Shown one piece after another: positions 1,285 through 56,356 of a stretch of 64,000 nt of DNA. Made by a program: the position numbers and the translations under genes. Location: assembly GCF_004336805.1 (NCBI RefSeq), contig NZ_SJXM01000015.1, forward strand, positions 1-64,000, given 5' to 3'. Each line of letters begins with the position of its first letter. Position 1 is the first letter of the stretch. Under the pieces are notes generated by a model. It was not told the origin of the DNA. It searched no databases and was given only the letters and a program-made list of their open reading frames with translations. Source of the DNA: Aeromicrobium sp. IC_218 (GTDB lineage Bacteria > Actinomycetota > Actinomycetes > Propionibacteriales > Nocardioidaceae).

Positions 1285-2594
1285 ACGTGCTGGGTCAGGA
1301 GCTCGCGGAAGAACACGATGCCGCGCTCCAGGCTGTCGACGCGCAGGTGCTCGTCGGCGGCGTGGATCGCGTCGCGCTGCTCGCGGGTCATGTCGAACGG
1401 GCTGAACCGGTAGACCGCGTCGCTGATCCGCGTGAAGTGCCGGCTGTCGGTGCCGCCGGTCTGGACGTACGGCACCGGCGCGGCCCCGTCGAGCTCCTCG
1501 ACGATGACGTCGCTGAGCAGGGCGAACGCCTCGTTGTCCGTGCGCGAGACCGGTGGCGGGTTGGCGCCCCGGGCCGAGGCGATCTCAACGTCGAGGCCCT
1601 CGAGAAGCGACGTGAGCCGCTCGGTGAGCTGCTCGATGGTGTCCCCGACCGCGAGCCGGACGTTGACCGTGGCGCGGGCCTCCTGCGCGAGCACGTTCGA
1701 GGCCGGGCTGCCGGACAGTCGCGTCACCGCCATGGTCGTGCGGGCGATCGCGTTCGTCTCGGGTCCGAGCCGGCTCAGCAGCATCGCCATGGGCCGGTTG
1801 ACCTTGTCGGCGCGGCGCAGCACGGCGCCCACCGGCGCCGGGGTCAGGTCGGCCAGGTGGCGCATCATCTCGACCACCGGCTCGCTCAACCGGGCGGGCG
1901 CCGGGTTCTCCTCGAGCCGGACGATGGCGCGGGCGAGCCGTGCGGTGGCCCCGTCGCGCGGCGGCGTGGAGGCGTGGCCGCCAGCACCGCGGGCGACCAG
2001 CTCGACGTCGACCGTGCCCTTCTCGACGATGGCGATCATCGCGGTCGGGCCCTTGACCATGGGGAACGCGCCCTCGACGACCGCCCCGCCCTCGTCGTTG
2101 ACCAGCCACGGCCGGACTCCCGCGGCCTCGAGGTGGTCGACGACGCGGCCGGCCCCGTCGCCGAAGACCTCCTCGTCGTCGCCGAAGGACAGGTAGACGT
2201 CGTGCTCCAGGATCACGCGGTCGGCGAGCATCCGCTCGACCGCCTCGGCCACGGCGACCAGGTGGCCCTTGTCGTCCAGCGCCCCGCGGCCCCACACCGC
2301 ACCGTCGACGACGGCGCCGTCGAACGGGTCCCGTCGCCACTGCTCGGCCGGCGCCGGCACGACGTCGTAGTGGGCCATGAGGACGATCGGCTTCTCCGCC
2401 GACCGGCCGGGCCAGCGGAACAGCATCGAGCCGCCGATCATCGTCAGCTCGAGCCGCTCGTGCAGCAGCGGGTACAGCCGGGCGAACGTCTCACGGAAGC
2501 GGACGAACTCGGCCTCGTCGCGCTCGTCGGCGGCCGAGACGGTGCGGCACGAGATCAGCTCGGCCAGGTTCGCCGCGGCGTCGCGCTCGCTCAT
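1281..2594 (-). CDS. M20-family zinc peptidase/deacylase (ArgE/DapE/ACY1 type)
   Basis: Predicted di-zinc amidohydrolase of 437 residues that cleaves a peptide or N-acyl amino acid; the substrate is unknown. Metal and catalytic motifs are visible: MAHYDVVP (H75, D77), GRGALDDKG (D107/D108), SFGDDEEVFG (E141/E142) and the late GGTDSRHF histidine motif. The middle segment (GGHASTPP) marks the dimerisation/lid domain insertion. This layout matches the carnosinase/PM20D1-like branch. The start is ATG at 2594. It overlaps the stop of the 27-codon minicistron lying between this gene and the MFS gene, so translation is probably coupled to that unit. It is convergent with rskA. Confidence 0.88.
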   Translation of the reverse strand: MSERDAAANLAELISCRTVSAADERDEAEFVRFRETFARLYPLLHERLELTMIGGSMLFRWPGRSAEKPIVLMAHYDVVPAPAEQWRRDPFDGAVVDGAVWGRGALDDKGHLVAVAEAVERMLADRVILEHDVYLSFGDDEEVFGDGAGRVVDHLEAAGVRPWLVNDEGGAVVEGAFPMVKGPTAMIAIVEKGTVDVELVARGAGGHASTPPRDGATARLARAIVRLEENPAPARLSEPVVEMMRHLADLTPAPVGAVLRRADKVNRPMAMLLSRLGPETNAIARTTMAVTRLSGSPASNVLAQEARATVNVRLAVGDTIEQLTERLTSLLEGLDVEIASARGANPPPVSRTDNEAFALLSDVIVEELDGAAPVPYVQTGGTDSRHFTRISDAVYRFSPFDMTREQRDAIHAADEHLRVDSLERGIVFFRELLTQHV

Positions 2595-2674
2595 CGGCGG
2601 ACCTCCGTGAGGGTCGAACGGTACGGACGTCCGCCGACCGCGGTGCTGGACCGTCGCTCGCTGCGCTCGCTCAT
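2595..2674 (-). repeat. 80-bp MSERSER minicistron, copy 1
   Basis: Self-contained 80-bp unit on the minus strand between the MFS exporter and the M20 peptidase. Its ATG (2672-2674) overlaps the MFS stop as ATGA. It encodes 27 residues beginning MSERSER and containing GGRP, and its TGA (2591-2593) overlaps the M20 start as ATGA. GGAGG lies about 7 nt before the M20 ATG. It shares exact length, the first 20 bases after the start nucleotide, the central GGCGGnCGTCCG and the terminal GGAGG with the tandem pair at 55601-55760. The region between these blocks is diverged. The peptide may have no function beyond relaying ribosomes. Confidence 0.8.
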
Positions 2675-54835: not shown

Positions 54836-55600
54836 TCACAACGCGCGAATGTCGTCGACCAGCCAGCGCCCGTCGACCCGCTTCATCGAGACCACGACCC
54901 GGTTGCCGAACACGGTGGGCTCCTGGGTGTCGGCGGTGACCCGGGCCTGGTCGAAGAACACCAGCACGGACGCCCGGTCGTCGGCGCACTCGTCGCCGCA
55001 CTCGCGCGGAGCAGCGCTCCGCGTCACGGTGCGCACCTGCACCTGGCGCTGCGGGGCCAGCTCGTCCAGCGCCGGCGCGATCGAGTCGAACTGCTCGGCG
55101 AAGCCGTCGGTCATCAGCGCGGTCGCGTCCTGCTCGTGCTGCTCGAGCTCGTCGAAGCGGTAGCTGAACACCGTCTCCATCGCCGTGCCCGCGGCGGCGG
55201 CCGCCTGGCGCTGCGCGGAGGCCACGTCGTCGTCGCCCTGCCAGCGGTCGTAGCCGTCGACCGCCGCCCAGGCGCCGAGCCCGAGCGCGACGAGCGCCAG
55301 CACGGTCAGCGGGACGACGACCCGCAGCGCGGCGCGCGACAGCCGGCGGCGCGGCGGACGCGCGGCCTTGGACTCCTCGCGACGGGCGCGCTTCTCCGCG
55401 CGGCGCTCGGACCGGGTGGGGCCGGCGGGCTCGCTCGGTGCCACGTCGGCCGGCCCGGCGCCGCTCGACGCCGGTCGCGCCGGGGCGACCGGCCGGGTCG
55501 GACGCGGTGCCGACGTGGCCGGACGCCGCGCCGGGGCGCCGGTTCCCGGGCGGGTCTCGCCGGCGATCCGGCGGCGCTGGGGGCGCTGCGCCTCGCTCAC
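54836..55600 (-). CDS. Mce-associated membrane protein
   Basis: 254 residues from GTG 55600. The first 95 residues are Pro/Arg/Ala-rich and basic, then a single transmembrane helix (about 96-118), then an extracytoplasmic domain with VFSYRFDELEQHEQDATALMTDGFAEQF and a final VSMKRVDGRWLVDDI. That last motif is typical of Mce-associated (Mas) proteins that stabilise Mce complexes. The start is directly preceded by two copies of the 80-bp minicistron, whose last Shine-Dalgarno would serve it. Confidence 0.8.
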   Translation of the reverse strand: MSEAQRPQRRRIAGETRPGTGAPARRPATSAPRPTRPVAPARPASSGAGPADVAPSEPAGPTRSERRAEKRARREESKAARPPRRRLSRAALRVVVPLTVLALVALGLGAWAAVDGYDRWQGDDDVASAQRQAAAAAGTAMETVFSYRFDELEQHEQDATALMTDGFAEQFDSIAPALDELAPQRQVQVRTVTRSAAPRECGDECADDRASVLVFFDQARVTADTQEPTVFGNRVVVSMKRVDGRWLVDDIRAL

Positions 55601-55760
55601 GGGCGTCCCTCCTGGAGGAAGTCATGGTGCGGACGGCCGCCCGCGAGAGTCGGCATGGTTCGCTCGCTGCGCTCGCTCACGGGCGTCCCTCCTGGAGGAA
55701 GTCATGGTGCGGACGGCCGCCCGCGAGAGTCGGCATGGTTCGCTCGCTGCGCTCGCTCAC
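55601..55760 (-). repeat. Two exact tandem copies of 80-bp MSERSER minicistron
   Basis: Bases 55601-55680 and 55681-55760 are identical. On the minus strand each copy starts GTGAGCGAGCGCAGCGAGCG, encodes 27 residues (MSERSER..., GGRP, ending EGRP), and ends TGA inside the next GTGA. The first GTG overlaps the stop of the 55757-56356 gene and the last TGA overlaps the GTG of the 54836-55600 gene. AGGAGG lies about 8 nt before each following start. With the copy at 2595-2674 this makes three units of the same length. Confidence 0.9.
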
Positions 55761-56356
55761 TGGCCCTCCTCCTGCTGCTGCGGCTCTCCCTCGGACGGCG
55801 GCTGACCGGTCTCGGCGGTCATCGCCGCGATGCTCTCGAAGTCGTCCACCTTCCAGGCGCCGTCCTGGCGCAGGAAGGCCACCTTCCAGCGGAAGTGGCG
55901 GCGCACCGCGGCCTTCTGGTCGGTGTTGGACACCGACGCGTCGACGGCCACGAGCACCTCGGCCGAGTCGGGGTCGAAGGAGTCGATGGCGACGGCCAGC
56001 ACCTCGGGGTCACTGCTGCGCTGCTTGCGCGAGGCCAGGGTGCCGAAGATCGCCTCGGTGACCTGGTCGAACTGCTCGCGGTAGTCCGTGGTCAGGAGCC
56101 CGGACATGCGCTCCTGGTAGTCGTCGAGCTCGGCGACGTCGTAGGTGTTGTACGCGGTGGCGAAGTCGTTCGCCGCCGTGACGAGGTCCTGGCGGGACGA
56201 CGCGTCGTCGTCGCCGGCGAAGGCGCGCGGCACGACGAGCCCGACGACGCCGACCAGCACGCCCACGACGACGAGCGCCGTGAGCAGCCGGACGATCCCT
56301 CGGGGCGGTGCGTCGGTCACCTCGCCGTGCTCGGTCCCAGAAGCAGCGCGCTCCAT
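55757..56356 (-). CDS. Mce-associated membrane protein
   Basis: 199 residues: a short cytosolic N terminus, one transmembrane helix (about residues 21-45), and an extracytoplasmic domain with the Mas-like TTDYREQFDQVTEAIFGTL and KVAFLRQDGAWKVDDFE. The C-terminal tail is Gln/Glu-rich. The ATG at 56356 is about 40 bp inside the mceF gene, so translation is coupled. Its TGA overlaps the start of the first tandem minicistron. Confidence 0.82.
   Translation of the reverse strand: MERAASGTEHGEVTDAPPRGIVRLLTALVVVGVLVGVVGLVVPRAFAGDDDASSRQDLVTAANDFATAYNTYDVAELDDYQERMSGLLTTDYREQFDQVTEAIFGTLASRKQRSSDPEVLAVAIDSFDPDSAEVLVAVDASVSNTDQKAAVRRHFRWKVAFLRQDGAWKVDDFESIAAMTAETGQPPSEGEPQQQEEGQ

Follow-up and report, generated by a model that had tools for sequence, protein, structure and literature searches.

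Dispersed MIRU-type units of Aeromicrobium and other actinobacteria: mini-cistrons that probably insert at DTGA gene starts

Introduction

The MIRUs of mycobacteria, a basis of tuberculosis strain typing, were reportedly described by Supply et al. in 1997. REP elements are short, hairpin-forming and dispersed as well, adjoin a fixed tetranucleotide and, to our knowledge, carry no coupled ORF. MIRUs are 40-100 bp long and are scattered in dozens of copies, which stand alone or in tandem and vary in number (excerpts of PMC12548453, PMC4213456 and PMC2734929). In its excerpts, the 2025 review PMC12548453 speaks of MIRUs for many mycobacteria and presents them as apparently mobile elements that insert at start codons, their ORF being coupled to the gene with a -4 nt spacing; this coupling likely permits insertion with little effect on expression. 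The MIRUs of the senX3-regX3 region are stated in the excerpted text of PMC4213456 to be confined to M. leprae and the M. tuberculosis complex.

Here we describe a tandem pair of 80-bp units in the window (i.e., the whole analysed stretch of 64,000 nucleotides from Aeromicrobium sp. IC_218) and the family to which this pair belongs. In our opinion, these dispersed units are probably mobile mini-cistrons of the MIRU type, which insert at DTGA gene starts and are transparent to translation.

A tandem pair between two Mce-associated genes

The minus strand of positions 55601-55760 consists of two identical 80-bp units arranged head to tail (Table 1). Each mini-cistron comprises GTG and 26 further sense codons (VSERSERTMPTLAGGRPHHDFLQEGRP), followed by a TGA that overlaps the next GTG as GTGA. 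The site thus has three coupled junctions in place of one, the left GTGA holding the upstream stop and the right GTGA the downstream start. The preliminary description, made from the letters alone, had recognized the two identical units, the start codon with 27 sense codons and the GTGA overlap in both of them, and the AGGAGG set for the following start, and in all this it was right (the spacing is 7 nt), but it left the minus strand unstated, and the head that it quoted as having 21 bases has 20.

Table 1. Features of the window (positions of the whole stretch)
Feature	Positions	Strand	Remarks
Unit 1 (upstream copy)	55681..55760	-	80 bp; starts on the GTGA of the upstream gene's stop
Unit 2 (downstream copy)	55601..55680	-	identical to unit 1; start codon of the downstream gene directly after
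Mini-cistron 1	55677..55760	-	27 codons + TGA
Mini-cistron 2	55597..55680	-	27 codons + TGA
AGGAGG	55608..55613	-	7 nt ahead of the downstream gene's GTG; second copy at 55688-55693
Putative hairpin, 5' arm, unit 2	55631..55646	-	unit 1: 55711-55726; covariation over 24 copies
Putative hairpin, 3' arm, unit 2	55597..55612	-	unit 1: 55677-55692; holds most of the Shine-Dalgarno, the GTG start and the overlapping TGA
Upstream gene, 199 aa	55757..56356	-	TGA within left GTGA; weak resemblance to OmamC / Rv0361_Cterm
Downstream gene, 254 aa	54836..55600	-	starts on right GTGA; distant relative of the upstream protein
Further single unit	2591..2674	-	80 bp; coupled ORF; ATGA at both ends; loop TACCGT intact

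The flanking genes had been called Mce-associated. This is supported by three MlaD/Mce4_CUP1 genes located just upstream of the pair, by a weak match of the upstream protein to OmamC (9r33, E 0.0017) and by the kinship of the two flanking proteins (the upstream protein as query finds the downstream gene with 28% identity, E 1.1e-9). The match of the upstream protein to Rv0361_Cterm falls below the family cut-off; the downstream protein gave no Pfam hit and only sub-threshold matches in NCBIfam.

Chance is excluded by far as the origin of the repeat, the window 80-mer matching 25 places in its own genome (BLAST, E <= 1e-3). The identity of both units could also result from an assembly artefact duplicating one of them. 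We find this scarcely credible, as tandem units spaced by 80 or 83 bp are present in single-contig genomes (G005 and G006) and in many named genomes; furthermore, an array of 160 bp is short in comparison to usual read or insert lengths.

Length and reading frame of the units

A scan of named genomes revealed at least 119 stretches with two heads 71 to 93 bp apart. The 80 loci listed from these contain 91 tandem units, which belong to 16 named genera of actinobacteria and 4 looser labels (taken from record titles), with Aeromicrobium, Nocardioides, Actinopolymorpha, Micromonospora, Nocardia, Kitasatospora, Streptomyces, Microbispora, Nonomuraea, Planotetraspora, Catellatospora and Phytohabitans, among others. 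For the window, it had been noted that 80 is not a multiple of three and that each copy therefore shifts the frame to a 4-bp overlap. This rule proved to be general: in 85 of the 91 tandem units at the listed loci, the length is 2 mod 3 and the stop of the ORF coincides with the next unit's DTGA. The lengths of these 85 (71, 74, 77, 80, 83 and 89 bp) vary between and within genera by multiples of three. The other six (from Nonomuraea, Pseudonocardia and Nocardia) are 0 mod 3 and open through, and none of the 91 is 1 mod 3. As a whole, the set ranges from 71 to 89 bp, with 54 units measuring 80 bp. The search pattern required the TGA in every head, but left length class and reading frame free; the binomial figure for the rule, 5.5e-32, is overstated, since the copies are related and the frame counts are not independent events.

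Copies read individually behave similarly. We read 35 copies in the IC_218 genome (compared to 38 covariance-model matches; the first 25 rows are the BLAST hits minus the partial head C25:110505 plus the neighbouring unit C3:19788, and ten copies were read later), and 32 of them are singly coupled. Two copies, C13 and C11:263873, measure 81 bp, and their open frame continues to a later DTGA; C3x, which has 82 bp and a premature stop, is an outright rule-breaker. Among 42 further copies of the genus (38 hand-picked from fetched loci and four initially omitted, i.e., one coupled copy, two 84-bp units of L219 and one gene-fused head), 37 are singly coupled, two of them being 104 and 113 bp long. 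The uncoupled ones are two 84-bp units of A. piscarium that are open in frame, the gene-fused heads at L210 and L196, and L040 with a 1-nt overlap. As 60% of shuffled units also keep 25 codons open, an open frame by itself says little about any given copy; the weight is carried by the joint rule of length class, open frame and a stop on the next start.

Several loci deserve mention on their own. L219 (G009, A. piscarium, C12) is an array of 84-bp units (0 mod 3) which form one open repeat frame before a coupled end. At C9 (L015), a partial third unit at the N-terminus of the gene behind the pair looks truncated and fused in frame, and the gene N-termini at L210 and L196 likewise look like truncated units fused in frame; VSERSERTVTERSE precedes a gene of G010. 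The element may thus reshape protein starts through the in-frame fusion of truncated units. L026 (G203, Nocardia genus group) has three heads at 78-bp spacing, apparently fused in frame before a gene that resembles sepF.

Distribution of the family

Besides the window pair, the IC_218 genome possesses tandem pairs on contigs C9, C23, C3 and C11. A covariance model built from 24 copies (alignment A2 with 24 rows, W1 being excluded as identical to W2) matched 43 of 49 Aeromicrobium genomes, with 0 to 71 matches each (E <= 0.01, at most 92 scored candidates per genome). A search of related genomes had been proposed along with the preliminary description. Beyond the genus, the model matched 44 of 117 genomes in the order, including 11 from the genus of the window, and 7 of 296 genomes of a phylum sample (2 from this genus), the matches outside the genus being weak in both cases. 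Among the phylum loci that were read, L027 lacks the head, and L028 and L029 are merely head-like strings in a different setting. Within the family of Nocardia, to which GTDB assigns the mycobacteria as well, 10 of 201 genomes contain the exact head and 191 lack it. In an even sample across the phylum, just 7 of 396 genomes possess it, so that "widespread" means here scattered over many genera rather than common. The plasmid and phage collections gave no match to the family consensus, and Rfam gave no RNA-family match for positions 55300-56000 at E <= 0.5.

Occupied and empty sites

The junction of the window was compared in the best 30 of 42 genomes with a match to the upstream gene (49 genomes of the genus were searched). 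The unit is absent from 27 of the 30, and in 25 of these 27 the two genes simply overlap by the 4 bp of a DTGA. The remaining cases are IC_218 itself with two units, G044 with one divergent unit and G049 with an unrelated palindromic insert. The unit therefore appears to have entered at the DTGA stop/start overlap, with both codons kept. Judged from these junctions, the insertion site is a DTGA start, as described for MIRUs.

The nearest relative, G010 (A. massiliense JC14, upstream protein 91% identical), is likewise empty at the window junction, which reads ATGA. We compared its genome with that of IC_218 at 18 of 21 IC_218 junctions, namely the window junction and 17 others (C13, C22 and the C3 pair were left out). 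The element is common to both genomes at six of them (C17, C11a, C21, C24a, C25b, C11c). At nine, G010 is free of the element and has DTGA at the gene start (the window junction, C25a, C20, C19, C24b, C9, C11b, C24c and C11d, with small differences just upstream of the empty gene start at C24c and C11d). Three (C23a, C23b, C3x) are altered in G010, with the full unit missing. Such presence and absence at orthologous junctions, with stop, start and frame kept, matches the trace that a mobile, translation-transparent element would leave.

Almost all copies are located right at the start of a gene. Landing at operon junctions, one of the early suggestions, is indeed usual, but the copies at C19 and C21 precede a seemingly leaderless gene. 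The empty C19 site of G010 has its gene start 7 nt after a TACTCT hexamer; the unit was therefore placed before a probably leaderless gene and not between two genes. In IC_218, TACTCT and TACCCT are located 7 and 6 nt ahead of the first GTG of the unit at C19 (L010) and C21 (L011), respectively, as at leaderless starts.

The array was also expected to extend or contract without breaking the coupling. At one orthologous site, G005 has three units and G051 four, and the frame rule is kept in 85 of the 91 tandem units, as expected.

The first bases of the left and right tetranucleotides correlate over 21 IC_218 sites (GG 15, AA 3, AG 3, GA 0; Fisher 0.015). A target-site duplication was considered and appears less likely, as the empty C9 site reads ATGA and its occupied right end GTGA, and as the right base covaries with the hairpin. 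For the same reasons, we favour the reading that the element brings its own right-end DTGA.

The insert at the Mce junction of G049 (L182, G049:C55:25033-25143) is an unrelated, strongly folding sequence of 107 bp, which leaves a coupled ORF with a 4-bp overlap as well. As a query, it hit G049 and G009 with 18 listed matches apiece, some representing both strands of one place.

The start-site hairpin

In the IC_218 copies, the middle of the unit is predicted to pair with its 3' end in a 14-pair stem. Over 24 copies, 96.4% of the stem cells pair (89.9% when shuffled). Nine of the 14 pairs changed on both sides, with 22 such cells compared to 4.7 in shuffles and none of 500 shuffles as high; the test is biased towards the hairpin, as the structure was derived from the same alignment. 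If the stem is slid, pairing drops to 30-50%. In C11c and C11d, which start with ATG instead of GTG, the opposite base of the stem is changed too. Furthermore, in 111 distinct units of all genera, the body of a unit is matched better by its own 3' arm than by arms exchanged within the genus (8.15 versus a mean of 6.96 and a maximum of 7.29 in 200 permutations). Units of Aeromicrobium, Micromonospora, Phytohabitans, Actinopolymorpha and Verrucosispora have a strong stem; it is middling in Microbispora, mixed in Catellatospora, and weak in Kitasatospora, Streptomyces, Nonomuraea, Planotetraspora, Pseudonocardia and Dactylosporangium.

For the start region, the predicted openness amounts to 0.16 with the unit, 0.28 with the arm shuffled, 0.39 without the arm and 0.38 at six empty sites; it is lower with the unit in 17 of 20 IC_218 cases when compared to the shuffled arm and in 19 of 20 when compared to the armless version. 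The window array is an exception, as the predicted openness of its start region is 0.25 and falls to 0.14 when the arm is shuffled; C9 and C11c are exceptions of this kind as well. The fold of the window unit is no better than that of shuffles (z -0.33, 68 of 200 as good; the range over eight units is -0.33 to -2.81). Taken jointly, the IC_218 copies are thus predicted to bury the Shine-Dalgarno and the start codon in a hairpin, for which the window copy alone is unconvincing. This hairpin may make the hand-over of ribosomes obligatory, or it may serve the movement of the element.

The units could also be a regulatory cassette, in which hairpin and mini-cistron would tune or gate the downstream gene, the tandem copy number would set the level, and copies would be kept as useful. 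The covarying hairpin at the start, the start region predicted to be less open than at empty sites and the change of copy number at an orthologous site are all in line with this, as is the correlation between the repeat length of an M. tuberculosis MIRU-VNTR and the mRNA level of the next gene, reported in the excerpted part of PMC2734929 (that repeat is of another build, with 55 and 79 bp corresponding to 37+18 and 37+26+16). However, the genes behind the copies look unrelated (judged from the N-termini as read), the copy number per genome goes from 0 to 71, and the full unit is missing at 12 of the 18 orthologous junctions in G010. We regard such a regulatory function as possible, though rather unlikely.

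The loop hexamer

A TANNNT hexamer is present in the loop region of 65 of 72 distinct Aeromicrobium-group units (13% in shuffles), and in 46 of these 65 it is located 29 nt before the start. It occurs in three codon phases (52, 12 and 1 units), which speaks for a signal at the level of nucleic acid; it might represent a -10 box. In both copies of the window, CACCAT stands in its place, and the hexamer is found in 0 of 70 units of other genera (5% in shuffles). A -35 element was sought upstream of it over four spacings, and 4 of 6 letters were matched only twice.

These data bear on the possibility that the unit is a portable promoter. Transcripts would then start from the loop -10 hexamer inside the hairpin and lack its 5' arm, leaving the Shine-Dalgarno open. 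The frequency of TANNNT in the Aeromicrobium group in more than one codon phase is compatible with this, and senX3-regX3 intergenic DNA with MIRUs is reported to drive regX3 (PMC4213456, excerpt). Against it stand the missing -35 match, the CACCAT of the window copies and the units of other genera without TANNNT, and a promoter function appears doubtful to us.

The hexamer bears on the encoded 27-residue peptide as well. The frame is kept in nearly every copy, and the ratio of non-synonymous to synonymous changes is 0.74 in the ORF frame compared to 1.08 and 1.28 in the other two, as selection for the peptide would predict. Nevertheless, the entropies of the three codon positions are nearly equal (0.59, 0.57 and 0.63; ratio and entropies refer to 19 distinct sequences, one of which, C11b, is 3 bases short), TANNNT is retained even where it falls in another codon phase and the peptide differs, and the peptides differ among genera beyond the SERSER head. 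Selection acting on the peptide is therefore improbable.

Proposed mechanism

In the preferred reading, that of a mobile mini-cistron, the element would insert beside the DTGA of a gene start, usually a 4-bp stop/start overlap, and seemingly bring its own right-end DTGA. Its 3n+2 length and its open frame would turn the insertion into a mini-cistron, so that the upstream stop, the downstream start and the hand-over of ribosomes can survive. Extra units could be added head to tail with the same outcome. In Aeromicrobium, the hairpin would bury the downstream Shine-Dalgarno and start; a ribosome ending the mini-cistron would open the hairpin and start anew at the GTGA. What we infer here is that mobility caused the dispersal, that the mini-cistron is translated and that re-initiation takes place, and we take the architecture to be selected chiefly for making insertion harmless.

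The preliminary description had proposed a relay cassette or an operon-junction repeat. Both fit the comparative data (the unit lengths, 37 of 42 coupled genus copies, occupied and empty DTGA sites, three versus four units at one site), but the proposal omitted that mycobacterial MIRUs share the architecture and that a start-site hairpin belongs to the unit. In a version that we put forward only tentatively, the units would be scattered relay cassettes, the hairpin shutting the start to free ribosomes so that it is reached by hand-on only, with one relay step per unit, and the loop promoter in Aeromicrobium would be a second, ungated entry.

A family of the same architecture in many other genera, for which empty sites, a frame rule supported by counts and a covarying hairpin are available, makes the retention of the coupled ORF in MIRUs, as well as their movement, testable in harmless bacteria, and the filled and empty junctions of sister species are ready natural experiments.

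Comparison with known systems

Like REP elements, the units are short, hairpin-forming, dispersed and situated beside a conserved tetranucleotide. Moreover, the 5' arm pairs with DTGA through its first letters, as might be expected if they were hairpin elements of the REP/RAYT or IS200/IS605 type moved by a Y1 transposase of the host. However, a search for the Y1 transposase (PF01797) was negative in all 49 genomes of the genus and positive in 5 of 14 control genomes, and the units carry a coupled ORF. We consider such an origin highly improbable. With the termination-reinitiation coupling of leader mini-cistrons they share the DTGA overlap, the Shine-Dalgarno before this overlap and a start within a structure that a ribosome could open; in contrast, the leader here is a repeated unit found at many unrelated genes.

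Among open-licence PMC papers, we found no description of such units in actinobacteria outside mycobacteria, and the excerpts of PMC11133741 do not mention MIRUs. Accordingly, the architecture as such is already known from mycobacterial MIRUs, and what appears to be new is its occurrence in MIRU-type units outside mycobacteria.

The likeness to MIRUs, which is drawn from published descriptions of their architecture, comprises four features. The first is the unit size of about 40-100 bp (71-89 bp in the listed tandem units), which two single genus copies of 104 and 113 bp exceed. The second is the presence of many dispersed copies, some in tandem and in variable number (three versus four units). 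The third is an internal ORF that overlaps the start and stop of its neighbours (32 of 35 copies in the IC_218 genome, 37 of 42 in the genus, 85 of 91 in tandem units), and the fourth is the insertion at DTGA, i.e., at start codons, as judged from filled and empty sites. The units differ from MIRUs in their hosts, which are Aeromicrobium and other non-mycobacterial actinobacteria, and are further characterized by a covarying start-site hairpin and, in Aeromicrobium, by the TANNNT of the loop. On this descriptive basis, they share the architecture of MIRUs.
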